Of a DNA stretch of 64,000 nt, positions 1 to 51,128 are shown piece by piece. Where the stretch lies: NCBI GenBank assembly GCA_905250025.1, contig CAJNOJ010000073.1:199879-263878 (forward strand), read 5' to 3'. The first letter of the stretch is position 1. The number at the start of each line of letters is the position of its first letter. Position numbers and translations under genes: made by a program. The notes under the pieces are model-generated. The model was not told the origin of the DNA. It searched no databases and saw only the letters and a list, made by a program, of their open reading frames with translations. The stretch is from Adineta ricciae. Taxonomy: Eukaryota > Rotifera > Eurotatoria > Adinetida > Adinetidae.

Positions 1-1
1 T

Positions 2-1912: not shown

Positions 1913-3185
1913 TTACTGATCATATTCTCCTTGATTATCATCATAGTTAAATTGATCATTTTTATTCCATGAGTTATCATCAACATAACCACGAGCACTA
2001 TCATCAAACGAATCAATTTCAAAATCGTTTTCGTCAAATTGTTCAATTGTACGATAATCATCGCTATTATCCTCATCATAATTATAATTATCAATATTTT
2101 GATAATCAATTTCATCATTATAATCCCAATTTTCTTTTCCAAAATCATTATTCGATACTTTACGAATCGTCCATACGTCAAAACAAAGATCCGAATCAGT
2201 CAGATAATCATATGGAATATAACAATATCCACGATCACCCTACAAAATATCAATCAAAAATTCGCCTTAGACATCCCTCGAAGAATTTCTTACCCAATCT
2301 TCTCCCCAAGAATTTCGAACAATAAATGATTGAGATTGATCACTATAACCAACAGCTACCAATGCATGGCTAATAACAATAGAAGAAAATAAGCTTTGTA
2401 AATTGAAGAAAACTTTGTTATACCTTCCATCAGATTGACGATTACGATCGTTAGAAGTTGGCATTGGTACAACACCTGTTTTAGCTGCTTTGTCAAATGA
2501 TGTAAATAGATGAAGTCCAAATACAAAAGGAAAACCTTGAGCAAGACATGATTTCATTTCATGTAAATTAATATCGACTTGAAGTGCTTGTGATATTGTA
2601 TGAGATTTAGCTGATGTATATACTTCTTCATTTGGACGTGTATTTACTTTAGAAATATCATAGGGCCATAATGATTCCAGACAAGTGCCAAGTTCTTCAA
2701 GTGCTTCAATAGCAGATGTCATTGAACAACCTGAATCTGTAATTGGTTCTGATGGTTGATCTTTTTCACGACTATTATAATAAATAAATAATCGACTAAT
2801 ATCAATACTTTCACCATGAAGTTTCTTTATTAAATATTCATATGCTCCTATTCAGAAAACTCTCAATTATAAAATTGTATTTGGAATTAATTTTTACCTG
2901 CTAGGGCATTAGCTGAACTAAAATCAAGAACAAAGCAATCAATATTATTGTTAAATCTATTTTGAAATGTAATTACCAACTACCAATACTTGATTGATTT
3001 TCTACCGTTGTCATATCATTTCGAAGATCAACTTTCGGTGGGAGTTCTTCAGGAGTATAAGTTACACGATTGTTGAAAGATTGACATAAATTTCCTTTGT
3101 TTGGTAAACGATTTGAAGGCCAAATACCATTTAGACGATATTTACGATTAGAAAGCTTGTTTATTAAAAATGTTTTTCGTGACAT
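1913..3185 (-). CDS. C1A (papain-like) cysteine peptidase, four exons (copy 1)
   Basis: Proposed join on the minus strand: 3185-2977, 2917-2898, 2847-2294, 2239-1913. All introns are GT-AG and the frame is kept, giving 369 aa. The papain triad is complete: Cys70 in QSSIGSCSANA, His237 in SHALVAVGY and Asn255 in VRNSWG, with the oxyanion Gln64 six residues before Cys. The Cys70 codon is split by intron 1 (TG|T) and the second exon is only 20 bases. There is no signal peptide and only a short N-terminal part. The C-terminal ~85 residues form an unusual Asp/Asn/Tyr-rich acidic tail. The DLR..M..VENQ..IGSC.ANA type is more familiar from bacterial C1 enzymes than from lysosomal cathepsins, so past transfer is possible (inference). 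I chose the ATG at 3185; an upstream in-frame ATG at 3206 is the alternative. Confidence 0.85.
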
Positions 3186-3945
3186 TATATTAACGTAATT
3201 ATACACTGTGTGAAAAGAAATAAATTATCTGTTCTTTTTCTCGTTCACTCTCACCGACTATATTTTTTATTCGTTTCAATGATTTGCACATGTATAAATA
3301 TATATTTAGTTAGGAAGAAAAAATATTTTCTTTTCAAATATAATTGATCGGTTATAATAATGACATCACAATTAGTTTATTTAGTAATGGATAAATGAAT
3401 AATCATTACGTTTCTAATCAAATTGGATGAATAATTATTTAACATTGTTTGTGGTGATTTTTGCAATGGAGAAATATCATAATGTTCTTTGAAATTTGTT
3501 TTTGTTGAAGTTGTCATAAAGTATAGAGTTCCGAGACTATACTGCTACGTCTTCATCTAATTCGTGTGGCGCAGGAACATTACGGAATCCATTACGACAC
3601 TTTTCAGGATAACATTTTTGTCGAAAAAAAATCAAATCTTAAATAATGACACAAAATTTCTTAGAAAAAAGATTTCTTATGAGCAGATGATTGTGCTAGA
3701 GGATAAGAATAATCGTCAATTCTACGTGATTTGTGGTGAAGAAAACGATTGTATCTTCGCGAAAGGTAAAACAATTGTTTATTCTTTGAGGTTCTGCTTA
3801 TAAAAAAAAACGAGTGTATTTCAATGTATTATTTCAAAGTTTTTTACTTAGAAAGATTTTTTTTCAATATAGTAAAATAGATAGAACACACGCGATACTT
3901 TAAACATGAAGCGAAATTTGCAAAGGAAAGCTGACATGAAAGTTA
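3186..3945. other. Intergenic region upstream of the peptidase
   Basis: AT-rich region holding the presumed promoter of the peptidase and the 3' flank of the large receptor gene. A 79-codon frame at 3564-3803 (+) is not kept in the second copy, where an extra A shifts it, so I do not call it a gene. Similarity to the second copy stops near 3755/17144. Confidence 0.5.
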
Positions 3946-6900
3946 TTATTCATTCAAGATTTGTTTACCATTTGATTTTTTAGCAGTTTGGCATCGACAA
4001 ATATTAAAAGATCGTTTAAAGTTTTTCATATATAAACTCGATGGTATGACAAAAATAACAAAGGTAAATATCGATGGTGTAAATGAAAAGAAATAAGCCA
4101 TAAGATATATCCAAATATTTTTTGATGTTCGTTTACAACCAGATAATGATGAAATAATTAAACGAGGCATTGTTAAAATAAGTAAAATAATTGGACTTAT
4201 AATTAAATGCTTATGTTCATGTAATTGTTGACGAAAATGTTCTTGCAAAGATTGATTCGTTTGTGCTGTTGATCGTTGACGTGCAGTTTGAAAAATAATA
4301 AATAAAGCTGAAAATAGATTAGCAAGAAATGGAATTATAAGATGAAAATATAATATTCCAGTATTATAATATTGAATAGATGATGAATAACGAACTACAC
4401 ACCAAAATTGTCGTTGAGTTGTACTTTGATAAATTGTATCGATAAATGTTTTATTTCTTACATCGAATAAAGGACTATCACTTTTATTAACATAAGCTTT
4501 GCCTGTTTCAGTGTTATATTCAAACATATTTCGATGTAAAGGTTCATGAATAAGACTAGCCATAATACACAATGGTAAAATGAAGATAATACATTGAACA
4601 ATACGTTTACTCTTGTTTCTATCAAAATTAACTCCACTAAAAACTCGGCCTGCTCGTTCAATTGCAATACAAGCATTTAGCCAAGTATCATAATAGAGAA
4701 AAAGTTTAAGAAGAGGTTCAATAACCAAACGACCTCCGCGAAGTATTGAAATATCAGTCACGAAATGAATTTCAGTAATTAAAGAAAACCAAAAATTAAC
4801 TGAAAACATACACGATGTTATAAAAGAAGTAATTGATAATGTAAATAAATATAATCCACATCCATTTTGTCGTTCTTCTTTACTTTTAAATGTTAAAAAA
4901 CAAAGTAAACTATTTATAAATCCAATAATAAACATAATAATTGTAAAAGCAGCACTTATTTTAATTGAAATTGATTGATTAGACAACGTTATATTTGATT
5001 GAATTTCACCGCGTAATATATCATCAAGAGGTAAACCAATTGTTGTAGAATAAAAATGACAACGATCTCCAATTGAACAACTTTGTTGTTTTGAATCTAA
5101 ACAATATTATTCTCATAAAAATTAAATAATTATCATAATAAAGAACATACTAAAACGATTAATAGTAACATCATTATCACCAGATATAAAAATAGAGAAA
5201 TTTCCTGTATGATTTGGATAATATGTTGTTATAACTAATATATATTTTATATTTGCTTCAAGATCAACAAAGAATTTCAATTGATGTTGATTACATTTTC
5301 CACTATGTTGAAAAAGTAAATTACCAAATGGTTGTAATGGATCAAAATTATCTTTATAAAGATAACCGTATGTATCATATTCACTTTCACTCCAAATTAC
5401 ATATGGACCAGGTTTTTTAACATTAATTTCTAATGTTTCATAATGATAACTTCGACTTTTGTAATCACGACAGTATTTTGGACTATTCGTTGTGATTTCA
5501 GATGAATAATTTGATTGAATAGTTATTTGTGAAGCTATTTAATTACAAATAAAATGCATTTATTCTAAGATAAAATGATACATTCCTTGGAAAAATTTCT
5601 CAAACAAAGATAATAGTTAAACATACAAATATTTCAAGGTCAATTCTCTTCGCCAATGATGAAAGTCCACTGTACTTTCGCCAATACATCCCTAACCTTT
5701 CACCATTGGCGAAGTTCCGATACCCCAACATTTTATATTATCTATTAATGAAATAATATCTCAAATACTTACAAAGACGTGTAACAAGAACATGCCTAAC
5801 ACCCGACATATGAACTATAATATTCCCAGTGATCATTGGAGAATATGTTGTGACAACTAATATGTATTTTGTGTCATTGTAAAGGGGAAGGTCAAATTTA
5901 AATTGATTCTCAGATCCTCCATCGTCATTTTTTGTAAAAAGATGTTCATCTGGATTAAGTGGATTAAAAGTCTCTTCATAAATATAACCATATGTATCAA
6001 TGGCCGAACTACTCCATATTGTATAATAACGATTTTCAGGTACTTTGATCTCAAATGATTCATAATAGTAACTTTCCCTATCACAACCTTGTGAATAGAT
6101 TTGACTATTTTTAGCTAATATTGATGAATTTGTCCATTCAATAACTGAAAACATATCTATAATAATAAAAAAAAACTTTATTTAAATCGAAATTCATATT
6201 GTTAATAAATCATTAGAATGTTCTGAATGATTTTCATTACAACTTACCACACGAATTTGATGAATATTCAAATTTTTGTATTCGATGATTTCCTGAATCA
6301 ACAACAAACAAATTTCCAAAATTATCAAAAGCAAGACTAGTTGGAAGGAGTAATTGAGTAGATTTTATATTAAGTCCATCACATCCGATAACACAAAAAA
6401 TGTCAGTGGGTCCTGATCGAAGAATTCGACGATTCTTTGAATCAACAATAAATAAAAATTGTTGAATATCTAATATAATTGCAGTTGGACATGAAAGTAA
6501 GTATTGACGTTTCGCAAGTAATGTACTTCCTACTAACGTAGTACCTTCCATTTGCCCAGATGAAATTCTTTGAATTCGATCATTTCCACAATCTGCTACA
6601 TATGTATCGAATTTTATATCAACGAATATTCCACGAGGATCATTAAGATGAACTGATGTTGAACCCTTTTCACTTGTTCCAGCGACGGCTTCCCATCCCA
6701 TGACAGGACTATAAATGTCTTTTTTGATAACTAAATGATTTTTAGACATTGAACAATATAAAAAGTTTTTTATATCAATAAATAAATCGAAACAAGAAGA
6801 AGAAACTATCATTACAGTGGTTGATACATTCCTATTAAATATCCATTTTTCAACCCGACCGTTTATTCCATTATCAATAAAAATTTCACCAATTGATGAA

Positions 6901-9900
6901 ACAAATAAAGAAGATGAATTATCATAATTAGTAGGAATCTTTTTTGATGGAGCACTATCATTTTCATTCCAAAATAAAATTTGTTGTTTTTCTCGATTAA
7001 TCGAATAAATTGAATTTTGTTTATTAATAAAGATTGAAGAAGGATTTAAACCAAGCTGAAATTGATCGGCAACTGTTATTCCATTTCGATTCCAAACTGA
7101 TTTTGAACAAATTTCTGGTTGATTGAACGGAAAACCTGTATATGAAAAGAGACTTTGAAATGAAATATATTTATATTTGATAAATTTAATCTCCTAGTTT
7201 CATTCATTCAATATTCATTATGAATAATATACATAACTATCATATATCTCTTCTTAACGTCAAACAAAAAATTCGTTAATTTTTCATCAAAACTATAACA
7301 AATGAATAGATAACTCTTATTGCTTTTTGTGTCAAATCTTAGCTGATTTCACAAGGGCTAAACAACGAAATCCCGAAATCCTGGAATATCACGCAATCCA
7401 AACGACTTTATGGAATCCAGTGGAATCTAACGGAATCCGAAATTATAATCTTTCCCAAAAAAAAAGAACACTTTTGTTCTTTTCTGGGAATATGTCCCGA
7501 AACAGAACAAAAGTGTTCTGTTTTGAGAAAGAATTTTAGAGAACTTTAAGGAATTCTATAGAATTCCAGGGAATCCTAAGGAATTTGTGGAATCTTAAAG
7601 AATCGTAAGAATTCTGAGAAATCCAAAGGAATCATAATTTTAGGATTGCGTTGTTTATATCTTGTGATTTCATCAAACTTATTCGGTTTCTTTAATGAAA
7701 ATACGCATGCACTGAACCCGAACGTTCGAGTTCGAGTAGCTGCCTAATTCGACTCATAATATAAGTGACCAAATCCTAGTACCCTTAGGAATAGAAATAG
7801 ATTTAGTTTTACTTATACATATACACCCACGCTCTCACTTATACTATCTCGATTGAGGGTGCTGCGGTGGGTGTGAATGTGAGGGTGAGGCTGTGGGTGT
7901 GTATATGTATAAGTAAAACTAAATCTATTTCTATTCCTATCTACTCATTTGTTATAAGTGTTATATAGATATCTATTTATATTCGAATTGATACTAGCCT
8001 GTCGGAGGTGGACCTATAATATAAGTCGAATTAGGCATCTCATGCTCGTTTGCCGATTTATATTTCTCTTCATCGAAGTCAGATGTTATATTTACTTACC
8101 ACAAGAATTTTCTATAGAGAATTTTAGAATTTCATCACCTGCGAGAACGAACATATTACCAAAATTGTCAAAACTTATAAGCATTGCATGTGCCAGTTGA
8201 GAATCTCCTCCTTCTCTTTCATAACAGCCAACTAAACATCGAAAACCGTAAGGTCCTTCTCCAACCACACGTTCTGCCGCCGATTCAACAATATATAAAT
8301 ATTTATTAGCATCCAAGGTAATCGCCCTAGGATTATGAAGTGATATAGTTGGACTTACTGACTTTTCACCAGCAATTGTAGTGGCATTGGTTGCTCCATA
8401 TGAAAAGAGTTGTATTCGGTTATTTTCATAATCTGCCACAAATAAATCGAAGTTCACATCAACGAAAATCCCTTCTGGCCAAGAAAGCTCATTACTATTA
8501 GATCCTTTATTACCTGTTCCAGCGACAGGAATGGATGTCATCGAAGAATCGTTTAAGTTTTTTTTCACTACTTGATTTTCCTCAGGCAATGAACAATACA
8601 AATTATCATTGATATCAATAAAAAGAACATAACACTCTGAATTTACATTCATAACAGTTTCAAAAGTGCTTCTCTCTGAATCCCATTTCTGTACTGTTCT
8701 ATTCCCATCATCTCCAACATTAAAATAAATATTACTATTTGATGTTACAAATAGATATCTGGGTTCTAAGAAGTGACTCAAATTAATATATCTCACATTA
8801 AGACTATTTTCATTCCATATTATAATCTTTTTTTGCTGCTTATGAATTGTATAGATTGTATTATTCGTATTAATGAATAAACCGTCAGGGGTCCATTTTC
8901 CGATAATGGATGGATTAACAAATGTGATACCATTTCGATTCCAAGTTTGGTTTGGACAAAATTGAGGTTGATTAAGTGAAATAACTAAAATATAAAGAAA
9001 TCAAATAAAAAAAGAATTTTTCAGCAAATATTTCAATGTATAATTCAAATCGCGAGACAAACCTGACAATGTTAATGAATAGTTCATAAAGTTAAGATTA
9101 ATAACTAATTAAAAATGATTAAAAGATTATAGAATGAAACAAAGGTGTTCCGAGGTCAAAAAAATGGGGGGCATCGAAAAAATTTCGAAAATTTTAGAAA
9201 GAAAACTTCGAAATCGTTTTCAATTCTGAGAAAAATTCGACGCTACCTGCGTGTTTTTTCATAAATTCCAAGTCTATGTCTAAAATTTTCCAAGATTGAG
9301 AGGGCGACGTCCCCCTCCCCCTCTTGGAACATCTCTGGAATGAAAATGGTACATTTTATTAGAATTAATTTTCTTTGCACATCTATCGACTTATTTCTTT
9401 AATTATTTATTTATTTATAAACAGTTGTCTCACTTTCACATTCTTATTGATTAATTTAAAAGGAATTGAAGTTCCGAAACTTTCTATCTTAAATATTCTC
9501 TATTTAAAAAAAGATTAAAATTACTCTTAAAAATCAGTTTTAGTTATCAAATCTTATCAATTAATTTATAAGCAGAGAAAATAGTTTTATTTTAGATTTA
9601 AACAATTAATCAAAGAAAAAATGTTTTCAAAGAAAAGTTCTTCAATAGATTTGAAAAAATAATCAAGATTTTTCAATTATTCTTATTTCCATATTTATAT
9701 GTTAGAAAAAGACTTTTACTGTAATATTCATTTTAGAAATTGATTTCTCTTTATTTACTCACCAGAAGAGATAAGTTCAAATTTTTGAATTCGATTGTTT
9801 CTCGACTCCACAACAAAAATGTTACCAAAAGTGTCAAAACTCATAGCTATTGGACGCTTCAATTGATTCGATTGAGAACCTCCTCCTTTTTCTTCGTCAC

Positions 9901-10809
9901 CTCCTACACTATAACATCCAACTAAGCATCGAAAACCGTAAGGTCCTTCTCCAATCACACGATGATTCCCCCTATCAACAATATATAAATATTTATTAGC
10001 ATCCAAGGTAATCCCATCAGGTTTTAAAAGTGGTATAGTGAGCTTATAAGATCTTTCACCAGCAACTGTAATCCCATGGGTTTCTCCATATGAAAAAAAT
10101 TGTACTCGATGATTATTAGTATCCGCCACAAATAAATCGAAGTTCACATCAACAAAAATGCCACCAGGATTTGAAAGTTCGTTACTATTAGATCCTTCAG
10201 AACCTGTTCCAACAATAGGAATGGATGTCATAGAAGAATCGTTTAAGTTTGTTTTCATCACTTGATTTTCCTCATACAATGAACAATACAAATTATCATT
10301 GATATCAATAAAAAGACCAGAACATGCTGAATTTACATTCATAACAGTTTCAAAAGTGTTTGTCTCTGATTTCCATCTCTGCACTGTTTTATCTCCCCAG
10401 CTATCACTAATATAAATATCGGCATTTGATGTTACAAATAGATATGTGGGCACTGACAAATTATCCAAATCAATAGATGTTAAATTAAGATTATTTTCAT
10501 TCCATATTAAAATCTTTTTCTCGTGCATATGAATTGTATAGATTGTATTATTCGTATTAATGAAAATAGCCTCGGGCGTTTTCCCAATAACGGATTCATT
10601 AGCAAATGTGATACCATTTCGATTCCAAGTTACAGTTGAAGATAAATTTGGTTGATTAAATGAAAGAGCTAAAATATAATTTAAAGAAAAATTTTTTATT
10701 AAAAACTTCATTTTTCAAAAAAAATATGTTAAAACTTTTAAATAAACTTACCAAATGATTTCTTATTATAAATAAGAAAAAAAGTAATTAAAATAGATAA
10801 ATTTAACAT
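3946..10809 (-). CDS. Chimeric receptor: signal peptide, three NHL propellers, two beta-sandwich modules, 7TM domain (seven exons)
   Basis: Proposed join on the minus strand: 10809-10752 (signal peptide, MLNLSILITFFLIYNKK), 10668-9763, 8984-8100 and 7135-6248 (three NHL propeller exons of 906, 885 and 888 bases), 6156-5773 and 5534-5151 (two related ~128-aa modules, both 384 bases), 5096-3946 (7TM). All junctions are GT-AG in phase 1, every internal exon is a multiple of three, and the total is 1551 aa. NHL blades are explicit, for example GIFVDVNFDLFVADTNNHRV. The 384-base modules carry a conserved IWS..DTYGYLY...F core and resemble CUB/PPC-type beta sandwiches (weak assignment). The last exon has seven hydrophobic segments, with IER in place of the class A DRY motif, and ends about 45 residues after TM6/7. 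The role is probably surface sensing of a ligand through the propellers. Alternative: three separate genes, or alternative 5' cassettes spliced to one 3' part. Introns 2 and 3 are ~780 and ~960 bases. Confidence 0.72.
7346..7670. mobile_element. Inverted-repeat element with GGAATC-type microrepeats and a central hairpin
   Basis: The ends are inverted repeats: the left end reads ATTTCACAAG then TAAACAACG then AATCC, and the right end gives the same on the other strand with few changes. The interior is full of degenerate GGAATC/GAATTC units. At its centre GAACACTTTTGTTC (7466-7479) pairs perfectly with 7505-7518. There is no coding capacity and I see no clear target-site duplication. It looks like a MITE or foldback element lying in an intron of the large receptor gene. 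Confidence 0.6.
7733..8044. mobile_element. MITE-like element, TGCCTAATTCGAC family, copy 1
   Basis: Terminal inverted repeats of ~25 bases (TGCCTAATTCGACT... at 7741 and its complement ending at 8037), plus long subterminal inverted arms (AATAGAAATAGATTTAG on the left, complement near 7915-7940 on the right). The flanks GAGTAGC on the left and TCTCATG on the right recur around the second copy at 10985-11375, so the true ends may lie a few bases further out. It is non-coding and sits in the intron between NHL exons 3 and 4 of the receptor gene. Confidence 0.65.
9000..9762. other. Long AT-rich intron between NHL exons
   Basis: No exon is recognised here. The sequence is very AT-rich with runs of A and T. 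A tiny frame, MNYSLTLS, just upstream of the exon at 8984 ends in a GTTTGT donor in the right phase. It could be an alternative first exon, but it is too weakly hydrophobic to call a signal peptide. Confidence 0.4.
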
Positions 10810-10984: not shown

Positions 10985-11375
10985 GGAGTAGCTTCCTAAT
11001 TCGACTTATAATATAAGTGACGAATTCCTAATACACTTCTACACATACTTAGGAATAGATAACGACAGATTTAGCTGTGCCTATTCACCCATGCCAGTTT
11101 AGGAATAGATATGGATAGGCTCAGCTCTGCCTAAGCCCACCTTCATTTGTGTTTAGGAATATACAGGAATAGATTTTGTTATACATAGTCGTAGGAATAC
11201 ACTCAACCGAGCTATATGTCAGCCTATGTCCATCGGTGCACACAGGTATAACTAAATCTATACCTATCTATTCCTAAACTTGTAGGTTTATATAGATATA
11301 CATCTATTTATATTCAAACTGGGATTAGTCTACCAGATGTCCATTTATAATATAAGTCGAATTAGGCAACTCATG
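10985..11375. mobile_element. MITE-like element, TGCCTAATTCGAC family, copy 2
   Basis: Inverted ends (left CCTAATTCGACTTATAATAT from 10995; right complement ending at 11368), with the same outer flanks as copy 1 (GAGTAGCT on the left, ACTCATG on the right). The interior has several AGGAATAGAT units. At ~376 bases it is longer than copy 1. It is non-coding and lies ~190 bases upstream of the receptor gene's first exon, so it may touch its promoter. Confidence 0.62.
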
Positions 11376-12646: not shown

Positions 12647-12697
12647 NNNNNNNNNNNNNNNNNNNNNNNNNNNNNNNNNNNNNNNNNNNNNNNNNNN
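12647..12697. other. Assembly gap (51 N)
   Basis: A run of 51 N interrupts the sequence. The 149 bases before it recur exactly after the single N at 17857. The true neighbour of 12646 is therefore probably 18007, and the segment 12698-17856 may have been placed in a gap. Confidence 0.95.
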
Positions 12698-16677: not shown

Positions 16678-17322
16678 TATATTAACGTGATTATACACTG
16701 TGTGAAAAGAAATAAATTATCTGTTCTTTTTCTCGTTCACTCTCAACGACTATATTTTTTATTCGTTTCAATGATTTACACATGTATAAATATGTATTTA
16801 GTTAGGAAGAAAAAATATTTTCTTGTCAAATATAATTGATCAGTTATAATAATGACATCACGGTTAGTTTATTTAGTAATGGATAAATGAATAATCATTA
16901 CGTTTCTAATCAAATTTGATGAATAATTATTTAACATTGTTTCTGGTGATTTTTGCAATGGAGAAATATCATAATGTTCTTTGAAATTTGTTTTTATTGA
17001 AGTTTTCATAAAGTACAATCAAATCTTAAATAATGACACAAAATTTCTTAGAAAAAAAGATTTCTTATGAGCAGATGATTGTGTTAGAGGATAAGAATAA
17101 TCGTCAATTCTACGTGATTTGTGGTGAAGAAAACGATTGTATTGCATACTGTTGAGTACAAGTAGCGCTCATCCGTTGGATTCGCTGACCCTTTTCTGAA
17201 AGAATTTAAAAATTAGTAGATAAAAACTCACTTAGATTTCAATTTAAGCGACTTCGAGTTGGAGTCATATATACAATGGAAAAATTGATTCATTGTTCGA
17301 CCTTTTTCATCATTAGATATAT
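16678..17322. other. Intergenic region with duplication breakpoint
   Basis: Matches 3186-3755 up to about 17144, where similarity to the first block ends. It is followed at ~17161 by a third AAGTAGCGCTCATCCG repeat. No gene is seen. Confidence 0.5.
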
Positions 17323-17526: not shown

Positions 17527-17578
17527 GAAAGTGCCAAAGCTTGCTAACAATATCTCGATAAAAAATAAGAATAGCACG

Positions 17579-17803: not shown

Positions 17804-17856
17804 TACCTCCCCACCAATGAAAAATGTGTCCACACATTAAGAAATAACAACGCGTA
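17804..17856 (-). mobile_element. Internal end and polypurine tract of the LTR retrotransposon
   Basis: On the minus strand this reads into the 3' LTR and ends with GGTGGGGAGGTA. No coding part of the element is present, because the N at 17857 ends it. Confidence 0.6.
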
Positions 17857-19761: not shown

Positions 19762-20195
19762 TGAAAAAAAACGACTAATAGAGAGTCCAAGATTTTCCAT
19801 TTTTCACTAGTTGAACTAATTACATATAGAAAAAAAACCTATGTCTATTTACTAATAATTACAATATGCGAAGTTCATTTTCCAGGCTAACTAACATTTA
19901 CCATTCAGAACAACTCTAGCTTTAATCAGTCCGATAAAAAATTATGATATTGCGCGATATAACAGCTTTTTTTCTCTTAAACCTACTGAATATCATGCGT
20001 TTGTTGATATTTACAATTGCGTTTTAGTTGTTGATTAAATATCCGTTAGTAAAAAAAATCATGAGGCAAAAAACTATATGGCTTATGACGTATCTATCAT
20101 TAAATCTCGAGTTCAACTAAGATAAAATATTATACAGATACATAGTTTTCTTCTACACTCGTATGTTCTCACTTTCATATATATATATTATTTTC

Positions 20196-23100
20196 ATGAT
20201 GAAGCGCATATTGATCGTTATTCTTTGGAATATATTCATCGTTTCAGGCTCGGACATATCGCAGCCGACCTACAACCTTTACAATACCGACACGATGACA
20301 AATGACGTTGACCACGTTTGTTTCTATTTGCCAATCATTAATAATCTCGATATCCATGAAAGATCGGCAATAAGTCAGCAGAATGTGGAATACTGTATTC
20401 GAACAAATGAGGAAGGTGTGAGTGATGTCAATGAAAACGCTATATCATCTATATTACCTTTCGATGAATTAAAAAAGAGAAATATTACTTCTGAAAATCT
20501 CTTGAAATGGTCGGCTCCTATTGATACTGTCGAACATTACGAACATTATTTACAAACGAACAGATCCACATTATTTATTCAATTTTATAATTGTACTCTG
20601 CCATGGTTTGGACCGTTTTGTCAGTATAGAATGATTTCATATCGACCGTTTTCTCATTTCGTTCAAATGAGACTTACCGATAAACAAGTATGGTACAAGA
20701 GTACGAAAATAGCCTGTTACATGCATATTCAGTGCAATACTAATCCAGCTTTACTTTGTCTTGACTGGCGTGAGGTATGCGATGGAAAGATTGATTGTTT
20801 AAACGGTGGCGAGGACGAAAAAGATTGCTTTGAACTTGAAATCAATCGCTGCGAGGAACACGAATATCAATGTCGGAATGGGATGTGCATTGACAAAGAG
20901 TTTCTGCTCGACGGATATGTCGACATGAATAACATGGAATGTTTGGATGGCTCAGATGAAACCGGACATCGTCCGCTGACTTCCTGCTCAAGAGATTCGT
21001 CTTTTTCATGCGAAGATATCTTCTCTCCTCGCTTGACAGACTTTAATTGTGGAGATGGAACATTTCTCAGTGTACTCATATCACAAAATCACATCAATTG
21101 TGCAAATGAACGAAATCGAGCACTTAATTACTTATCTGATTGGCACAATCCGGGAAGTTCACATTATCCGCGTTGTTTCAAAACTCTCATGTGTGCATCA
21201 GGTTTGACATTATTACACAATTTCGATCTGTATTGCAAGAATTTATGTAATAGCAGCGGAGAATGTAAACTTCATACTCTCCAACATTGCCCATCTGCAT
21301 TTCTCGCACCTGACTTTCCGATATGGCACGGGCATGTTAAATACGGCTATTTTTCGAATCAGACTATTGAAAATATAGGAAATATACCGCACTTTGTATG
21401 CTATGACGAGACTCTCTGTCCACACATCGCTTCAACATTCATGCTGGAAAATTCTACGTGCTTACATGTCAACCAGTCAGATCCAAAAGCGATTGATACT
21501 GTGTATAGCATATTTCGCTCATGCGATAACACCTTTCAAACCGGAAATGAGGTTAACTGTACGGATTCAACAATGGTGCGTTGTGTGAACACAAATCGAT
21601 GTATACCGAAGCGTCGAATTATGGACGGTGTTGTAGATTGCTATCATGCTTTTGATGAATCACTTTCGATTGATTCGTGTGCATTAAATGATCAATATCG
21701 TTTTCAATGCACATCTGAACAGAAATGTTTAGCGCCGATTTTGGTCGATGATAAAAAAATACATTGTAATAACAGAGAAGATGAAACTAACCTAATGGGA
21801 GTTGCTAGAGACATTCATACACTACCGTTTATTGCCTTTTGCGATGGGAAAAATGACCTTTTATCGGTGAATAACGAAACGGAAGAAACTCACTGTGAAG
21901 CATGGCCATGTGCAAATGCATATACACGCTGCGATCATTATTGGGATTGCCCAAATGGTATTGATGAAGTTAATTGTTCAACAGTTTTTTCATGTCCTGC
22001 AAACCATCATCCTTGTTGGTTACCGCAGACTCATAAGATGGGTTGTTTGCATATCGATCGTGTCGAAGATGGAATTATGGATTGTCTTGGAGCAACAGAC
22101 GAACCATCCTATTGTAAAGCATTCGATGTAGGAAACAAGTTTCTACACTACCGTTGTTGGAATGATACTAAGTGTGTATCAGTGGCAACTGTTTGTCTAT
22201 ATTGTCATGACATCAATGATGTTAACCTATTATGTAACAAATCTAATCCCGTTGGCGTAGCTTTCATTCGCTACTTTGCTGATCGGGATTTTGCTGGTGC
22301 TACTCTAATGTCAAAAGCAAAATTTTCTCATAAGTCATCGTCTGTGTACCCTTCGATTCAATCACCGTCAACAGTTCATAAACAAATATCCAGTAACATG
22401 ATAAAAACGGAGAAAACATCTCACATTCAACTGCTTGACGACTCCAGATTGTGGTTATGCAACAAAGGTCTCGTAATTCTCGTTGGTAAGAAAGAAACCG
22501 AACAATGTCTCTGTCCAGAAACTTACTATGGTGATCATTGCCAGTACCAAAATCAACGCGTTAGTCTTACTCTTCGATTACATCAAGAAAAATTATTCAA
22601 ATTCACTGTGATTGGCATTATTATCAGACTTGTGGATACAACAGGTTTTATTCAATCCTATGAACAAATTACCTACGTTCCAGTGACTAATTGCAATGCT
22701 AAATACAATATGCATCTTCTTTATCACCATCGGCCGAAAAACACAACGGAAAACTATACAATTTATATTGATGCTTATGATAAAGTAGATCTTCTCTATC
22801 TCACGAGTTGGATCTATCCAGTGAAATTAAAATTTATGCCTGTCAATCGTATGAGTGTTCAATTGATTATACCTGCAAAGCAAGACTGTCGGTTGGTATG
22901 TAGTGAGAAATACTTCGAACTATTAAGAAACGACCATCGCCAATCCTGTCGGTGTGTAAGTCGAATACAAGCAACTGTCGACAAGTGCAACTGTTCTTCT
23001 CAATCGATATGTGTTGGTATGAAAGAAAACCGATCTATCTGTCTTTGCCCTCTGCACAAAACAGGACCACGCTGTTATTTGAGTTCCATCTGTGAAACCA

Positions 23101-24833
23101 ACAATTCATGTGTAAATAAAGGCATTTGTGTACCTCATGATTCGCGACATTCTCCGACAAATTATACTTGCGTATGTCCCGATGGATTCTTTGGTAAATA
23201 CTGCGAACAAACGGACGTGAAAATCAATGTTTCAATTTCGGGTATTGAAACTCCGCAGTCGACACTAATTCATTTCATCGATGTTGCTCAGAGTGCGTCA
23301 ACAAGAATCAAACGCGATGTAACTCAAACAACAATATTCAAGAGGATCGGAATTAATGAAAATGTTTTAATTTTAAACATGTCGTTATCATTTCATCTTC
23401 TGTTTGTTCAGTTCGAGCATTCTTATTATCTTGCGGTTCTTCAGCATGATTACGTACCATCAGTTGTTATTTTATCCGAGATCTCTCCGTCAAGACGTTG
23501 TCCGGTTGTCCACGAATTGCTGGACTCATCTATTCTAGCTTATTCAGTTCTACGTCGTGTGAACCGCTATCATTCAATATGCAAACAGTATGCTGAACTT
23601 GATTGTTTTCATGATAATTACACGTTTATGTGCTTATGTACAAATGGGCGAGATGCGAACTGTTTTCATTTCAACTACAACACAACTCATAAATGTTCAG
23701 GACATAGTAATTGTGAAAATGGCGCACGTTGTTTTCAAGATCATCCACATTGTCCAACGAAAACCATGTGTGTCTGCCAGGAGTGCTTTTATGGTGATAA
23801 ATGTCAATTCACAAGCCATCATTTCGGTCTTTCACTCGATTCGATTTTAGGTTATCATATTTATCCGCATCTCACATTCGCTGAGCAATCTTTACCCGTA
23901 AAAATTAGTATAATTTTATCGACGATAATCGTTGTAATTGGTCTCATTGGTGGTATTCTATCAAATCTAACATTTCAAGTGAAGTTAACGCGACAGACGG
24001 GCTGTGGTATGTATCTGTTTGCGTCATCGATAACATCGATTATGATCGTTCTCTTGCTCTATGTCAAAGTTTGGCTGCTTATTATTTCACAAATGCAAAT
24101 TCTCACTTGGCGATTGATTCTTTTCTTCAACTGCACTCCGGTTGAGTTTGTGCTTCGACTGTTGTTGACTACAACAGATTGGTATCATGTTTTCGTCACC
24201 ATTGAACGCTTTCTCGTAGTTTTTCTTGGCGTGCGTTTCGATAAATCCAAAAGTCGAGCATTCGCTAAGGCACTCATACTAATCAGTCCTGTACTCATCG
24301 CTGCATCGATTCTTCATGATCCGATTCATCGTCATCTAATTGATGATGTTGAAGATCAACGAACATGGTGCATTGTTACATTTGCATTTCAAACGGAAAC
24401 CTACAATAGATTTATCAATATTTTCCACTTCATCATTCCGTTTTCGCTCAATCTTATTTTAACCATTGGGATTATATTTATCACTGCCAGACAACGCTCG
24501 TCAGCAAAGAGACAATTCACTTTTGAGCAACATTTGAAAAGTCAATTTTATCGTCATAAACATCTGATCGTTAGTTCGATTCTATTGGTTGTTTTCATAT
24601 TACCACGTCTAGTAGTTTCCTTTCTTTCGAATTGTATGAAATCAGCAAAAGACTACAAATTATTCTTAGTTAGTTATTTTATTTCATTCTTTCCGCCTAT
24701 ACTCCATTTCTTCATTTTTGTTCTAACATCGGAAATCTACAAAAAGCAATTCAATGCAATGATCCGACGGAAATGGAAAAAATACCGACGTTGTCTATTT
24801 CTGCGACTAGCTTTATCGAAAAGACAGAAATGA
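20196..24833 (+). CDS. LDLa/EGF 7TM receptor (unit A)
   Basis: An intronless frame of ~1545 aa from MMKRILIVILWN (signal peptide, cleavage near SGS-DIS). The frame is open 11 codons further up, but the unit B copy differs there, so I start at 20196. Two adjacent LDL-receptor class A modules lie at ~residues 175-260 (CDGKIDCLNGGEDEKDC, then CLDGSDE), and further LDLa-like units to ~residue 680 (for example CPNGIDEVNC). EGF-like modules follow (CPETYYGDHCQ near 780; C-x-C-x-x-G-F-F-G-K-Y-C near 1000; CVCQECFYGDKCQF near 1200). Then come seven hydrophobic segments from ~residue 1235. TM3 ends with IER where class A receptors have DRY. TM7 lacks NPxxY and ends PPILHFFIFVLTSEIYKKQF. The 7TM part matches the family in the last exon of the gene at 3946-10809. 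Probably a ligand-binding cell-surface receptor. Confidence 0.85.
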   Translation: MMKRILIVILWNIFIVSGSDISQPTYNLYNTDTMTNDVDHVCFYLPIINNLDIHERSAISQQNVEYCIRTNEEGVSDVNENAISSILPFDELKKRNITSENLLKWSAPIDTVEHYEHYLQTNRSTLFIQFYNCTLPWFGPFCQYRMISYRPFSHFVQMRLTDKQVWYKSTKIACYMHIQCNTNPALLCLDWREVCDGKIDCLNGGEDEKDCFELEINRCEEHEYQCRNGMCIDKEFLLDGYVDMNNMECLDGSDETGHRPLTSCSRDSSFSCEDIFSPRLTDFNCGDGTFLSVLISQNHINCANERNRALNYLSDWHNPGSSHYPRCFKTLMCASGLTLLHNFDLYCKNLCNSSGECKLHTLQHCPSAFLAPDFPIWHGHVKYGYFSNQTIENIGNIPHFVCYDETLCPHIASTFMLENSTCLHVNQSDPKAIDTVYSIFRSCDNTFQTGNEVNCTDSTMVRCVNTNRCIPKRRIMDGVVDCYHAFDESLSIDSCALNDQYRFQCTSEQKCLAPILVDDKKIHCNNREDETNLMGVARDIHTLPFIAFCDGKNDLLSVNNETEETHCEAWPCANAYTRCDHYWDCPNGIDEVNCSTVFSCPANHHPCWLPQTHKMGCLHIDRVEDGIMDCLGATDEPSYCKAFDVGNKFLHYRCWNDTKCVSVATVCLYCHDINDVNLLCNKSNPVGVAFIRYFADRDFAGATLMSKAKFSHKSSSVYPSIQSPSTVHKQISSNMIKTEKTSHIQLLDDSRLWLCNKGLVILVGKKETEQCLCPETYYGDHCQYQNQRVSLTLRLHQEKLFKFTVIGIIIRLVDTTGFIQSYEQITYVPVTNCNAKYNMHLLYHHRPKNTTENYTIYIDAYDKVDLLYLTSWIYPVKLKFMPVNRMSVQLIIPAKQDCRLVCSEKYFELLRNDHRQSCRCVSRIQATVDKCNCSSQSICVGMKENRSICLCPLHKTGPRCYLSSICETNNSCVNKGICVPHDSRHSPTNYTCVCPDGFFGKYCEQTDVKINVSISGIETPQSTLIHFIDVAQSASTRIKRDVTQTTIFKRIGINENVLILNMSLSFHLLFVQFEHSYYLAVLQHDYVPSVVILSEISPSRRCPVVHELLDSSILAYSVLRRVNRYHSICKQYAELDCFHDNYTFMCLCTNGRDANCFHFNYNTTHKCSGHSNCENGARCFQDHPHCPTKTMCVCQECFYGDKCQFTSHHFGLSLDSILGYHIYPHLTFAEQSLPVKISIILSTIIVVIGLIGGILSNLTFQVKLTRQTGCGMYLFASSITSIMIVLLLYVKVWLLIISQMQILTWRLILFFNCTPVEFVLRLLLTTTDWYHVFVTIERFLVVFLGVRFDKSKSRAFAKALILISPVLIAASILHDPIHRHLIDDVEDQRTWCIVTFAFQTETYNRFINIFHFIIPFSLNLILTIGIIFITARQRSSAKRQFTFEQHLKSQFYRHKHLIVSSILLVVFILPRLVVSFLSNCMKSAKDYKLFLVSYFISFFPPILHFFIFVLTSEIYKKQFNAMIRRKWKKYRRCLFLRLALSKRQK

Positions 24834-30316: not shown

Positions 30317-30720
30317 ATGAACAACACTTTATATTGTTCATTGATAAACTATGACAAAGCTGTGAAAGAAGGGCTAGGCAACAACGTTGTTGATAACAGT
30401 TGTCTTCACATTGAAATTCTGGATTGTCGTCTTCGAGTATTCCTTCATATGGACCAACGACTAAATGCATGCGTTGCTTGTGAACGAGCAATCATAGTGA
30501 TGAAAGGCGCGCGTTTCGTTAAGAGAAAAAGTCGACAAACAGCGCAATTCGTAATGACTGTGCTATGCCACTTATCCATCGTCTCGTTTTCAAAGTTATA
30601 ATACCGGTCATGCTTACTTTCGTTATTTTTGTGTTATCATCAACATTTTATAGAAAGCAATTTTGCCGATCACTTGATCAATATCGGAATAGGATTCAAC
30701 ATCACTTTTATATTTTTCTG
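30317..30720 (+). pseudogene. 7TM receptor relic (unit A)
   Basis: Remains of the same 7TM family as the two large receptors. A TM3/ICL2 part (RLNACVACERAIIVMKGARF then KRKSRQTAQF) and a TM7/C-tail part (MLTFVIFVLSSTFYRKQF, in another frame from ~30609) survive. The segments between TM4 and TM6 are gone, and the reading frame is broken. Unit B (50600-51128) keeps extra pieces, including a TM2 part and the extracellular loop HNSIHRNLFDE...RVWC, so unit A has lost a further ~100 bases. Confidence 0.6.
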
Positions 30721-40313: not shown

Positions 40314-40732
40314 TGAAAACAAAACGACCAATAGAGAGCCTGGCATTTTCCATTTTTCACTAGTTGAACTGATTACATATAGAATAAACCTATGTCTATT
40401 TTTGATAATTATAATATGCGAAGTTCAGTTTCCAGGCTAACTAACATTTATCACTGAAGACAACTCTAGCTTTAACCAGTCAGATAAAAAATTATGATAT
40501 TGCGTGATATAATAGCTTTTTTCTCTTAAATCTACTGAATATCATGCGTTTGTTGATATTTACAATTGCGTTTTAATTGTTGACTAAATATCCGTTAGTA
40601 AAAAAAGAAAAACTGTCATGGTTTATGATACATCTGTCGTTAAATTTCGAGCTCAACTAAGAATAAAATATGACGCAGATACATAGTTTTCTTCTACACT
40701 CATTTGTTCTCGCTTTTATATATATTATTTTC

Positions 40733-43700
40733 ATGATGAAGTGCTTATCGATCGTTATTCTTTGGAATCTATTCTTCCTTTCAGGCTCGGACATATCGCA
40801 GCCGACCTATAACCTTTACAATACCGATACGATGACAAGTGACGTTGATCACGATTGTCTCTATTTTTCAATCATTAATGATCCCGATATCCATGAAAGA
40901 TGGGCAATAAGTCAACAGGATGTGGAATACTGTATTCGAACAAAGGAGGAAGGTGTGAGTGACGACAATGAAAACGCTATATCATCTATATTACCTTTCG
41001 ATGAATTAAAAAAGAGAAATATCACTTCTGAAAATCTCTTGAAATGGTCGGCTCCTATTGATACTGTCGAACACTACGAACATTATTTACAAACGAACAG
41101 ATCCACATTATTTACTCAATTTTATAATTGTATGCTGCCATGGTTTGGACCGTTTTGTCAGTATAGAATGATTTCATATCGACCGTTTTCTCATCTCATT
41201 CAAATGAGACTTACCGATAAACAAGTACACTACAAGAGTACGAAAATAACCTGTTACATGCATATTCAGTGCAATATTAATCCAGCTTTGCTTTGTCTTG
41301 ACTGGCGTGAGGTATGCGATGGAAAGATTGATTGTTTAAACGGTGGCGAGGACGAAAAGGATTGTTTTGAACTTGAAATCAATCGCTGCGAGGAACATGA
41401 ATATCAATGTCGGAATGGGATGTGCATTGACAAAGAGTTTCTGCTCGACGGATATGTCAGCGCGAATAACATGGAATGTTTGGACGGCTCAGATGAAACC
41501 GGACATCGTCTGCTGATACCCTGCTCAAGAGATTCATCTTTTTCATGCGAAGATATCTTCTCTCCACGCTTGACAGACTTTAATTGTGGAGATGGAACAT
41601 TTCTCAGTGTACTTATATCACACAATCACATGAGTTGTGCAAATGAACGAAATCGAGCACTTAATTACTTATCTGATTGGCACAATCCGGGAAGCTTGCA
41701 TTATCCGCGTTGTTTCAAAACTCTCATGTGTGCATCAAATTTGAGATTATTAAATAACTTCGATCTGTATTGCAAAAAATTATGTAATAGTAGTGAAGAA
41801 TGTAAACTTCATACCCTCCAACAATGTCCATCGGCATTTCTCGCACCTGATTTTCCGATATGGCACAGTCATGTTAAATACGGCTATTTTTCGAATCAGA
41901 CTATAAAAAAAATAGGAAATCTACCGCACTTTGTATGTTATAACGAGACTCTCTGTCCACACATCGCTTCAACATTCATGCTCGAAAATTCTACGTGCTT
42001 ACATGTCAACCAGTCAGACCCAGAAGCGATTGATACTGTGTATGACATATTTCGCTCATGCGATAACACCTTTCAAACCGGAGATGAGGTTAGCTGTACG
42101 GATTCGACAATGGTGCGTTGTGCGAAAACAAATCGGTGTATACCGAAGCGTCGAATTATGGACGGTGTTGTAGATTGCTATCATGCTTTTGATGAATCAC
42201 TTTCGATTGATTCGTGTGCATTAAATGATCAATATCGTTTTCCATGTACATCTGAACAGAAATGTTTAGCGCCGATTTTGGTCGATGACAAGAAAATACA
42301 TTGTAATAACAGAGAAGATGAAACTAGCCTAATGGGAGTTGCTAGAGACATTCATAAACTACCGTTTATTGCCTTTTGTGATGGGAAAAATGACCTTTTA
42401 TCGGTGAATAACGAAACGGAGGAAACTCACTGTGAAGCATGGCCATGTGCGAATGCATATACACGCTGCAATCAGTATTGGAATTGTCCAAATGGTATTG
42501 ATGAAGTTAATTGCTCATCAGTTTCTTCATGTCCTGTAAACCATCATCCTTGTTTGTTACCGCACACTCATAAGATGGGTTGTTTGCACATCGATCGTGT
42601 CGAAGATGGAATTATGGATTGTCTTGGAGCAACAGACGAACCGTCCTATTGTAAAGCGTTCGATGCAGGAAACAAGTTTCTACACTACCATTGTTGGAAT
42701 GATACTAAGTGTGTATCAGTGTCAACTGCTTGTCTATATTGTCATGACATCAATGACGTTATCGTATTATGTGACAAATCTAATCCCGTTAACGTAGCTT
42801 TCTTTCATTACTTTGCTGAACGAGATTTTGCTGGTGCTACTCTGATGTTAAAAGCACAATTTTCTCATAAGTCATCGTCTGTGTACCCTTCGATTCAATT
42901 ACCATCAACAGTTCATAAACAAATATCCAGTAACATGATAACAACAGAGAAAACGTCTCGCATTCAACTGCTTAACGACTCCAGATTGTGGTTATGTAAC
43001 AAAGGTCTCGTAATTCTCGTTGGTAAGAACGAAACCAAACAATGTCTCTGTCCAGAAACTTACTATGGCAATCATTGCCAATACCAAAATCAACGCGTTA
43101 GTCTTACTCTTCGATTACATCAAGAAAAATTATTCAAATTCACTGTGATTGGCATTATTATCAGACTTGTGGATACAACAGGTTTTATTCAATCCTATGA
43201 ACAAATTACCTACGTTCCAGTGACCCATTGCAATGCTAAATACAATATGTATCTTCTTTATCACCATCGACCGAAAAACACAACGGAAAACTATACAATT
43301 TATATTGATGCTTATGATAAAGTAGATCTTCTTTATCTCACGAGTTGGATCTATCCAGTGAAATTAAAATTTATGCCTGTCAATCGTATGAGTGTTCAGT
43401 TGATTATACCCGCAAAGCAAGATTGTCGGTTGGTATGTAGTGAGAAATACTTCGAACTATTAAGAAACGACCGTCGCCAATCCTGTCGGTGTGTAAGTCG
43501 AATACAAGCAACTGTCGACAAGTGCAGTTGTTCTTCCGAATCGATCTGTGTTGGTATGAAAGAAAATCGATCCATCTGTCTTTGTCCTCTGCACAAAACA
43601 GGACCACGCTGTTATTTGAATTCCATCTGTGAAACGAACAATTCATGTGTAAACAAAGGCATTTGTGTACCTCATGATTCGCGACATTCTCCGACAAATT

Positions 43701-45370
43701 ATACCTGCGTATGTCCCGATGGATTCTTTGGTAAATACTGCGAACAAACGGACGTGAAAATCAATGTTTCAATTTCGGGTATCGAAGCTCCTCAGTCGGC
43801 ACTAATTCATTTCATTGATGTTGCACAGAGTACGTCAACAAGAATCGAACCCGATGTAACTCAAACAACAATATTTAAGAGGATTGGAATTAATGAAAAT
43901 GTTTTAATTTTAAACATGTCGTTATCATTTCATCTTCTGTTTGTTCAGTTCGAGCATTCTTATTATCTTGCAGTTCTTCAACATGATTACGTACCATCAG
44001 TTGTTATTTTATCTGAGATCTCTCCATCAAGACGTTGTCCGGTTACCCACGAACTGATGGACTCAACTATTCTAGCTTATTCAGTTGTACGTCGTGTGAA
44101 ACATTATCATTCAATATGCCAACAGTATGCTAAACTTGATTGTTTTCATGATAATTACACGTTTATGTGCTTATGTACAAATGGGCGAGAAGCTAACTGT
44201 TTTCATTTCAACTACAACACAACTTATAAATGTTCAGGACATAGTAATTGTGAAAATGGCGCACGTTGTTTTCAAGATCATCCACATTGTCCAACGAAAA
44301 CCATGTGTGTCTGCCAGGAGTGCTTTTATGGTGATAAATGTCAATTTACAAGCCATCATTTCGGTCTTTCACTCGATTCGATTTTAGGTTATCATATTTA
44401 TCCGCATCTCACATTCACTGAACAATCTTTACCTTTAAAAATTAGTATAACTTTATCCACGATAATCGTAATCATTGGTTTCATTAGTGGTATTCTATCA
44501 AATCTAACATTTCAAGTGAAGTTAACGCGACAGACGGGCTGTGGTGTGTATCTGTTCGCATCATCGATGACATCGATTATGATCGTTCTTTTGCTCTATG
44601 TCAAAGTTTGGCTGCTTATTATTTCACAAATGCAAATCCTCACTTGGCGATTCATTCTTTTCTTCAACTGTACTCCAGTTGAGTTTTTGCTTCGACTGTT
44701 GTTGACTACAACAGATTGGTATCATGTTTTCGTCACTATTGAACGCTTTCTCGTAGTTTTTCTTGGCGTGCGTTTCGATAAAGCCAAAAGTCGAGCATTC
44801 GCTAAGACACTCGTACTAATCAGTCCTGTACTTGTTGCTGCATCGATTCTTCACGATCCGATTCATCGTCATCTAATTGATGATGTTGAAGATCAAAGAA
44901 CATGGTGCATTGTTACATTTGCATTTCAAACGGAAACCTACAATAGATTTATCAATATTTTTCACTTTATCATTCCGTTTTCGCTCAATCTTATTTTAAC
45001 CATTGGGATTATATTTATCACTGCCAGACAACGCTCGTCAGCCAAGAGACAATTCACTTTTGAGCAACATTTGAAAAGTCAATTCTATCGTCATAAACAT
45101 CTGATCGTTAGTTCGATTCTATTGATTGTTTTCATATTACCACGACTAATCATTTCCTTTCTTTCGAATTGTATGAAATCAGCAAAAGACTACAAATTAT
45201 TCTTAGTTAGTTATTTTATTTCATTCGTTCCGCCTATACTCCATTTCTTCATTTTTGTTCTAACATCGGAAATCTACAAAAAGCAATTCAATGCAATGAT
45301 TCGACGGAAATGGAAAAAATACCGACACTGTCTATTTCCGCGACTCGTTCCACCGAGAAGACAGAAATGA
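40733..45370 (+). CDS. LDLa/EGF 7TM receptor (unit B)
   Basis: Intact ~1545-aa frame from MMKCLSIVILWN, with the same domain order as the unit A copy: signal peptide, LDLa modules (CDGKIDCLNGGEDEKDC), several Cys-rich units, EGF-like modules (CPDGFFGKYC, CVCQECFYGDKCQF) and seven membrane segments. Extra codons upstream (MTQIHSFLLH...) are not shared with unit A and are excluded. Residue changes between the copies cluster in the N-terminal third of the ectodomain, while the part around residues 760-1010 and the 7TM region are nearly unchanged. The N-terminal third may be the ligand-facing variable part (inference). Confidence 0.85.
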   Translation: MMKCLSIVILWNLFFLSGSDISQPTYNLYNTDTMTSDVDHDCLYFSIINDPDIHERWAISQQDVEYCIRTKEEGVSDDNENAISSILPFDELKKRNITSENLLKWSAPIDTVEHYEHYLQTNRSTLFTQFYNCMLPWFGPFCQYRMISYRPFSHLIQMRLTDKQVHYKSTKITCYMHIQCNINPALLCLDWREVCDGKIDCLNGGEDEKDCFELEINRCEEHEYQCRNGMCIDKEFLLDGYVSANNMECLDGSDETGHRLLIPCSRDSSFSCEDIFSPRLTDFNCGDGTFLSVLISHNHMSCANERNRALNYLSDWHNPGSLHYPRCFKTLMCASNLRLLNNFDLYCKKLCNSSEECKLHTLQQCPSAFLAPDFPIWHSHVKYGYFSNQTIKKIGNLPHFVCYNETLCPHIASTFMLENSTCLHVNQSDPEAIDTVYDIFRSCDNTFQTGDEVSCTDSTMVRCAKTNRCIPKRRIMDGVVDCYHAFDESLSIDSCALNDQYRFPCTSEQKCLAPILVDDKKIHCNNREDETSLMGVARDIHKLPFIAFCDGKNDLLSVNNETEETHCEAWPCANAYTRCNQYWNCPNGIDEVNCSSVSSCPVNHHPCLLPHTHKMGCLHIDRVEDGIMDCLGATDEPSYCKAFDAGNKFLHYHCWNDTKCVSVSTACLYCHDINDVIVLCDKSNPVNVAFFHYFAERDFAGATLMLKAQFSHKSSSVYPSIQLPSTVHKQISSNMITTEKTSRIQLLNDSRLWLCNKGLVILVGKNETKQCLCPETYYGNHCQYQNQRVSLTLRLHQEKLFKFTVIGIIIRLVDTTGFIQSYEQITYVPVTHCNAKYNMYLLYHHRPKNTTENYTIYIDAYDKVDLLYLTSWIYPVKLKFMPVNRMSVQLIIPAKQDCRLVCSEKYFELLRNDRRQSCRCVSRIQATVDKCSCSSESICVGMKENRSICLCPLHKTGPRCYLNSICETNNSCVNKGICVPHDSRHSPTNYTCVCPDGFFGKYCEQTDVKINVSISGIEAPQSALIHFIDVAQSTSTRIEPDVTQTTIFKRIGINENVLILNMSLSFHLLFVQFEHSYYLAVLQHDYVPSVVILSEISPSRRCPVTHELMDSTILAYSVVRRVKHYHSICQQYAKLDCFHDNYTFMCLCTNGREANCFHFNYNTTYKCSGHSNCENGARCFQDHPHCPTKTMCVCQECFYGDKCQFTSHHFGLSLDSILGYHIYPHLTFTEQSLPLKISITLSTIIVIIGFISGILSNLTFQVKLTRQTGCGVYLFASSMTSIMIVLLLYVKVWLLIISQMQILTWRFILFFNCTPVEFLLRLLLTTTDWYHVFVTIERFLVVFLGVRFDKAKSRAFAKTLVLISPVLVAASILHDPIHRHLIDDVEDQRTWCIVTFAFQTETYNRFINIFHFIIPFSLNLILTIGIIFITARQRSSAKRQFTFEQHLKSQFYRHKHLIVSSILLIVFILPRLIISFLSNCMKSAKDYKLFLVSYFISFVPPILHFFIFVLTSEIYKKQFNAMIRRKWKKYRHCLFPRLVPPRRQK

Positions 45371-50599: not shown

Positions 50600-51128
50600 T
50601 TTCCGTTCTCGCTACGTAGACTCCCCCACGGTCTGCCGACATCTTCATTGCTAAACTATCACAGAGTTGTGAAAGAAAGGCTAGACAACAATAACATCAC
50701 TTCGATGACTGCAGTTAGAATCGAATTACCTGGAATCGGGATTGGTGCCTGTCCGGTAACAACGTTGTTGATAACATTTGTCTTCACATTGAAGTTCTGG
50801 ATTGTCGTCTTCGTGACTAAACGCATGCGTTGCTTGTGAACGAGCAATCATAGTGATGAAAGGCGCGCGTTTCGTTAAGAGAAAAAGTCGACAAATAGCG
50901 CAATTCGTAATGACTGTGCTCTTGATTTTCAAAATTCTCGTATTTATTCACAATTCCATTCATCGAAATTTGTTCGATGAGATCGATGAAGACGAAAATG
51001 AAAAACGAGTTTGGTGTACTGCTACTTATTCGTCGTCTCGTTTTCAAAGTTATGATACCCAGCCATGCTTACGTTCGTTATTTTCGTGTTGCTATCAACA
51101 TTTTATCGACAAGAATTTTGCAAATTAA
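50600..51128 (+). pseudogene. 7TM receptor relic (unit B)
   Basis: Pieces of the large-receptor 7TM family in shifting frames: a TM2 part (IGIGACPVTTLLITFVFTLK), a TM3/ICL2 part (MMKGARFVKRKSRQIAQF) and the second extracellular loop (NSIHRNLFDEIDEDENEKRV then WC). TM4-TM6 are missing and several frame breaks are present, so it cannot make a receptor. It preserves more than unit A. Confidence 0.6.

Follow-up and report, generated by a model that had tools for sequence, protein, structure and literature searches.

Results

A seven-exon gene with one reading frame

The window, by which we mean the whole stretch of 64,000 nucleotides that was analysed, carries on its minus strand, from position 10809 down to 3946, seven exons that splice into one frame with a CDS of 4656 nt, 1551 amino acids and the terminal stop codon as its sole stop. 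Exon 1 (10752..10809, on the minus strand like all the following ones, 58 nt) supplies the start codon and a hydrophobic leader, MLNLSILITFFLIYNKKSF. It is followed by three exons for putative NHL propellers, NHL1 in exon 2 (9763..10668, 906 nt), NHL2 in exon 3 (8100..8984, 885 nt) and NHL3 in exon 4 (6248..7135, 888 nt), then by two exons of 384 nt for a candidate PPC-like beta module, M1 in exon 5 (5773..6156) and M2 in exon 6 (5151..5534), and finally by exon 7 (3946..5096, 1151 nt), which encodes an EGF-tail-like stub, QSCSIGDRCHF, a linker, a predicted seven-helix core and a short C-tail. The region from 3946 to 10809 contains zero Ns, and an AATAAA is found at 3783, approximately 160 nt beyond the stop codon.

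All six introns have GT..AG borders and all six are in phase 1, which by simple arithmetic would have a probability of (1/3)^6, approximately 0.0014, if intron phases were random and even. Reading through any of the six introns from its donor leads to a stop after 2 to 11 codons. The exon number, the GT-AG borders, the lengths of the internal exons, the junction coordinates (given as last and first exon base) and the phase-1 introns on both sides of every internal exon are exactly as an earlier note on this DNA had given them. That note also described the gene as built only from symmetric phase-1 exons, which is correct for the five internal exons (each of phase 1-1) and has to be given up for the two terminal ones. 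Since all six introns are in phase 1, the frame is kept whichever of the five internal exons are included (32 of 32 subsets), as had been foreseen for the propellers; this is a consequence of the symmetry and no evidence of actual skipping.

A gene of this composition might be the product of an error in which two neighbouring genes, one for a secreted protein with NHL and PPC-like parts and one for a short 7TM receptor, have been joined through GT-AG sites read across the interval between them. Within intron 1, an ATG in frame with exon 2 is indeed found together with a leader-like stretch, MKFLIKNFSLNYILA, and therefore exon 2 might also act as a first exon and start a product alone; moreover, the paralogues described below carry the 7TM core in a gene devoid of an NHL part. 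Against this, for none of the NHL2, NHL3, M1, M2 and 7TM exons does the open frame that precedes the exon contain an in-frame ATG, and when both strands of the window were scanned for first exons (an ATG, a length of 37-239 nt, a hydrophobic leader and a phase-1 GTRAG donor), one candidate only was obtained, the proposed exon at 10809-10752. Furthermore, the phases agree at all six junctions, and the 7TM core of the paralogues likewise follows an ectodomain of very large size, encoded with it in one frame without interruption. Separate genes were rejected on account of the lacking upstream ATG for the later exons, the lack of another first exon and the matching phases, and we regard the joining of two genes as very unlikely. 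It follows from the same observations that single NHL exons with signal peptides of their own, an outcome considered in the earlier note, find no support for NHL2 and NHL3, while the ATG in intron 1 would permit such a start for NHL1. The start is ambiguous in a second respect, as the 29 codons that precede the ATG at 10809 showed no in-frame stop. We consider it probable that the locus is an intact gene whose product, a seven-helix receptor, is synthesised as one polypeptide that follows a hydrophobic leader.

Three NHL propellers

The Pfam NHL model was matched above its cut-off by all three NHL exons, with E-values of 8.6e-15 for NHL1, 3.9e-4 for NHL2 and 4.3e-9 for NHL3, the match of NHL2 being barely sufficient (20.7 versus 20 bits). 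Six blade motifs could be placed by eye in each exon, with spacings of 42-56 residues in NHL1, 42-52 in NHL2 and 41-52 in NHL3, blade 6 of NHL2 being degraded, and four cysteines are common to the three exons. A profile of the three exons matched solved NHL propellers, among them the designed Pizza6 (2e-25), TRIM71 (2.2e-23) and a teneurin-like propeller (1.5e-20). The best stretches lie mostly in the second half of the profile, and the first blades therefore rest on the motifs placed by eye. From the Pfam matches, the repeated blades and the structure matches, exons 2-4 are predicted to encode NHL beta-propellers.

The amino-acid identity is 63% between NHL1 and NHL2, 40% between NHL1 and NHL3 and 39% between NHL2 and NHL3, and the two 384-base exons are 39.5% identical to each other, so that the relatedness within both groups of exons is borne out and points, as was earlier suggested, to whole-exon duplication. 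In a simple Nei-Gojobori analysis dS and dN between NHL1 and NHL2 are 0.30 and 0.23, and dS is 1.17 for NHL1/NHL3 and 1.13 for NHL2/NHL3, which suggests a recent copying event for NHL1 and NHL2 and a greater age for NHL3. The dN/dS ratio is 0.75 for NHL1/NHL2 (bootstrap range 0.54-1.09), 0.43 for NHL1/NHL3 (0.29-0.60) and 0.66 for M1/M2 (0.36-1.09, with a dS of 0.83); because the ranges of NHL1/NHL2 and M1/M2 include 1, constraint is shown for NHL1/NHL3 only.

The likeness of NHL1 and NHL2, which share 79% of their nucleotides over the aligned codons, could also have arisen by gene conversion between two old propeller exons instead of a recent exon duplication. On the acceptor side the DNA match extends 11 nt into the intron, and on the donor side it stops within the exon, at 9897/8204. 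The identity is uneven along the exon: counted per 25 codons it varies between 0.72 and 0.92 over codons 1-275 with a peak at codons 101-150, and then drops to 0.65 and 0.44 at the end, where the last 50 codons show a higher divergence (dS 0.56, dN 0.43). Such a pattern favours conversion, with the reservation that the exon end itself has diverged, and the donor side therefore cannot locate the breakpoint. In the 60 nt of intron past the last 11 on the acceptor side, the likeness is not above that of two-base-block shuffles (0.66 of 500 reach the score); when this stretch was mutated at 23% or 35% of its sites, the mean scores were 32 and 19, respectively, versus 3 observed. This again speaks for conversion, but the simulation was made without indels, insertions can renew introns, and intron 3 does have palindromic repeats. 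In none of the six comparisons of intron flanks did the likeness exceed that of shuffles. We consider gene conversion a serious contender, if the less probable one, next to duplication with later turnover of the introns; the related exons as such point to whole-exon duplication.

Two beta modules

No Pfam match above cut-off was obtained for M1 or M2, and no match to PPC (PF04151) was seen. Structure prediction, which the earlier note had proposed for each exon, was applied to the modules and to exon 7: the AF2 model made from two sequences (M1 and M2) is a beta structure with a pLDDT of 74.5, and the model of exon 7 has a pLDDT of 39.8 and is unusable. Foldseek returned 1567 matches for the module model at E 10 and 0 at 0.001. 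The top matches include a p24 GOLD domain, the Tk-SP beta domain, ColG collagen-binding domains and a PPC domain, with E-values from 6e-3 to 1.9e-2 and a probability of 1.00; the top folds are mixed, with GOLD, calpain, CBM and virus capsids alongside PPC and ColG, and the best E-value is 6e-3.

A genome scan, in which the E-values are relative to candidate stretches only, gave 15 bacterial loci with related modules. An alignment of M1 and M2 with modules from 14 of the 15 loci (L006 was omitted by choice) has four invariant residues, namely D, T, G and Y of DTYGY. The Pfam PPC cut-off was passed by one of five bacterial relatives tested, and narrowly so (26.0 versus 25.9 bits). An NDDGG loop is kept in M1, as it is in several of the bacterial relatives, and is absent from M2. 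In NCBIfam M1 and two bacterial modules match the same end of one model, all of them below its cut-off, and no match in NCBIfam reached a model cut-off. A profile search of PDB with the M modules and their bacterial relatives gave nothing at E 1, and with M1 and M2 alone it gave one chain at E 0.96. We describe the 384-base exons as encoding a predicted, PPC-like beta module that is probably related to bacterial PPC-type repeats.

The data on the internal exons bear on the question of whether the gene might be a decaying copy, with the receptor out of use and its propeller exons drifting freely. Part of blade 6 is missing from NHL2, which is barely above the NHL cut-off, the dN/dS ranges for NHL1/NHL2 and M1/M2 include 1 as stated above, and decayed 7TM fragments occur elsewhere in the window. 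Against decay stand a frame of 4656 nt without internal stop, interrupted by six GT-AG introns, and the dN/dS range for NHL1/NHL3, which lies below 1. Decay thus appears unlikely, and we continue with the reading of an intact receptor gene.

A divergent seven-helix core and its paralogues

Exon 7 alone matched nothing in Pfam at E 10, including 7tm_1, and phmmer found no match for it in PDB. A hydropathy scan at 1.3 gave six peaks in the 7TM part, where it failed to pick up helix 3, and three weaker ones in the ectodomain. The family assignment comes from paralogues. Using tblastn, four other 7TM places were found in the window, two of them intact (23778-24752 and 44315-45289) and two decayed, the latter at 30416..30565 on the plus strand (38% identity over 50 aa, E 1.8e-6) and, within a duplicated block, at 50820..51095 on the plus strand (29% over 127 columns, E 7.9e-10). 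The intact cores are 38% identical to that of exon 7 and are part of long stop-to-stop frames on the plus strand, paralogue A (20121..24833, 1570 aa), in which an LDLa/EGF ectodomain precedes the related 7TM core without interruption, and paralogue B (40667..45370, 1567 aa), its copy in the tandemly duplicated block. The two are 93% identical at the DNA level; being copies within a tandem block, they count as one independent case. None of the four places showed relatives of the NHL or M modules at 0.01 in tblastn.

Segments of paralogue A match the Pfam models for LDLa (2.9e-10) and EGF (3.8e-6), and in scans of the whole frames LDLa is just at the cut-off in A and below it in B. The 7tm_1 model is matched above cut-off by the paralogue cores, at 7.7e-10 for A and 4.1e-10 for B; in the whole 1570-aa frame of A it is unlisted at a Pfam E of 0.1. 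As 7tm_1 is found only on the isolated 7TM part, receptors of this kind may be under-annotated. A joint profile of exon 7 and the two paralogue cores matches melatonin receptor 1A at 6.5e-6, in an alignment that covers helices 1 to 7. Since exon 7 has no 7tm_1 match of its own and the paralogue cores do, the link of exon 7 to class A goes through homology only.

Class A receptors are recognised by the D/ERY and NPxxY motifs and by a disulfide bond between helix 3 and loop 2. Exon 7 has IER at the DRY place, prolines in helices 5 and 6 and the loop-2 cysteine. At what we take to be the corresponding positions, NPxxY is absent, a serine replaces the aspartate of helix 2 and the helix-3 cysteine is missing; the residue 25 positions before the arginine of ER, presumably the place of this cysteine, is R in exon 7 and C in the paralogues. 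Our reading of exon 7 is accordingly that of a divergent, class A-like core with seven predicted helices. No relatives of the 7TM exon, the NHL profile, the M profile or the 7TM profile were found in viral contigs.

The stub at the start of exon 7, QSCSIGDRCHF, aligns with CVCQECFYGDKCQF of the paralogues. Just before the linker to helix 1 these have CVCQECFYGDKC, and exon 7 starts with the matching QSCSIGDRC half. We take CVCQECFYGDKC to fit the tail pattern of EGF modules, a pattern that is also found in 77 of 10000 shuffles of the paralogue cysteine-rich stretch. Pfam called no EGF at the juxtamembrane stretch of the paralogue, and the matches of this stretch to PDB are weak (neuregulin 0.06, reelin 0.11). 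We read the stub as the apparent vestige of an EGF-like module cut at the phase-1 intron, although it would be simpler to assume a conserved disulfide stalk. The paralogous core on an entirely different ectodomain and the EGF-tail-like stub therefore seem to reflect an exchange of the ectodomain within a receptor family.

Surroundings of the gene

Two copies of a collinear tandem block of approximately 20 kb lie at 19165-39259 and 39722-60862, with matching pieces that are 83-96% identical. Both carry LDLa/EGF-7TM and 7tm_1 receptor genes, and they have matching frames for LRR, PARP-like (below cut-off), ankyrin and, by eye, FAD-oxidase-like proteins, the LRR, PARP and ankyrin calls being from a scan of the first copy. 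An ordinary rhodopsin-family receptor is found in both copies, at 26373-27317 (2e-14) and 46847-47938 (7e-15), with an open frame of 314 aa in the first versus 363 aa in the second.

The receptor gene itself is flanked by a duplicated block with FG-GAP and, by eye, cysteine-protease-like frames (1-3754 and 13357-17142, pieces 91-98% identical), and the match between the copies ends approximately 190 nt past the receptor stop codon. A search for a receptor remnant beyond the other copy, at 17000-19400, gave nothing better than E 0.25 (limit 10). Related palindromic, MITE-like repeats occur at 7734-8044 in intron 3 and at 10986-11375 upstream of exon 1, and another palindrome is located at 7460-7524. 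A run of 51 Ns at 12647-12697, near the start of an FG-GAP frame in the interval that separates the receptor gene from the second duplicated block, is probably an assembly gap.

Discussion

The symmetric phase-1 exons, each carrying one module, support the suggestion that the locus encodes a cassette-built receptor. What can be read directly from the DNA is the anatomy of the gene, and from this we infer topology, ligand and coupling as follows. The three NHL propellers and then the two PPC-like modules, the latter acting as a stalk, would make up an ectodomain outside the cell, and this ectodomain, presumably through its propellers, may bind a protein, peptide or glycan ligand from other cells, from prey or from microbes. 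The class A-like core would then signal, probably through G proteins, though several of the canonical class A switch residues are missing. As to the origin, the ectodomain of an EGF-bearing ancestor may have been replaced by phase-1 cassettes placed in front of the 7TM exon, whereupon the propeller exon would have been copied, with NHL3 splitting off first and NHL1 and NHL2 last, and the stalk exon would have been copied too.

In a wider sense there may be a rotifer receptor family in which the 7TM core with its EGF-like stub serves as a docking exon, and in which whole symmetric cassettes (NHL, PPC-like) or an LDLa/EGF mosaic are exchanged and copied in front of it, perhaps with a choice among them by alternative splicing, leading to diversified recognition with one signalling core. 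We put this forward tentatively, as a speculation that is somewhat doubtful at present.

The expanded families of Adineta vaga include 7-transmembrane receptors and proteins with LRR, NHL and FG-GAP motifs (PMC3846280); these kinds are named side by side, and the passage in question makes no mention of a fusion. All four occur in the window, and together with the general habits of such families this makes a bdelloid rotifer the probable source of the DNA. In our literature search we came across no account of a 7TM receptor that bears NHL propellers, and such proteins may already be annotated in rotifer proteomes. If confirmed, the gene would join the NHL fold to a class A-like seven-helix core, and its ectodomain would be one assembled from frame-neutral cassettes, whose gain, loss or skipping would leave the reading frame intact. 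Ectodomain exchange and exon copying would then become testable in a lineage described as having gene conversion and expanded 7TM, NHL, FG-GAP and LRR families (PMC3846280).

Among known systems, adhesion GPCRs resemble the receptor in having a long modular ectodomain before the 7TM part, but the core of the receptor resembles class A. No GPS or GAIN match was obtained for exons 2-7 at E 1 or for the two paralogue frames at E 0.1, for which reason the assignment to adhesion GPCRs was rejected; one window paralogue has a weak likeness to the GPR128 N-terminal model, below cut-off (0.0011). The NHL fold is known mostly from intracellular TRIM proteins and from teneurins, which are cell-surface proteins with one membrane helix and other domains. 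Teneurins and TRIM/NHL proteins thus have the propeller in common with the receptor, but lack a seven-helix core. With the rhodopsin-like class A GPCRs, of which melatonin receptor 1A is the nearest solved one, the receptor shares a family profile that can be aligned from helix 1 to 7, the IER at the DRY place and the prolines of helices 5 and 6. It differs from them in that exon 7 alone misses Pfam 7tm_1, in the absence of NPxxY, in the serine at the helix-2 aspartate and in its ectodomain of approximately 1150 residues. Large ectodomains with LDLa or leucine-rich modules are found on class A receptors of the RXFP/LGR type, which likewise have a modular ectodomain before a class A core, and LDLa is also carried by the window paralogue; the receptor described here would differ from this type in having NHL propellers and PPC-like modules in the place of the LDLa or leucine-rich ones.
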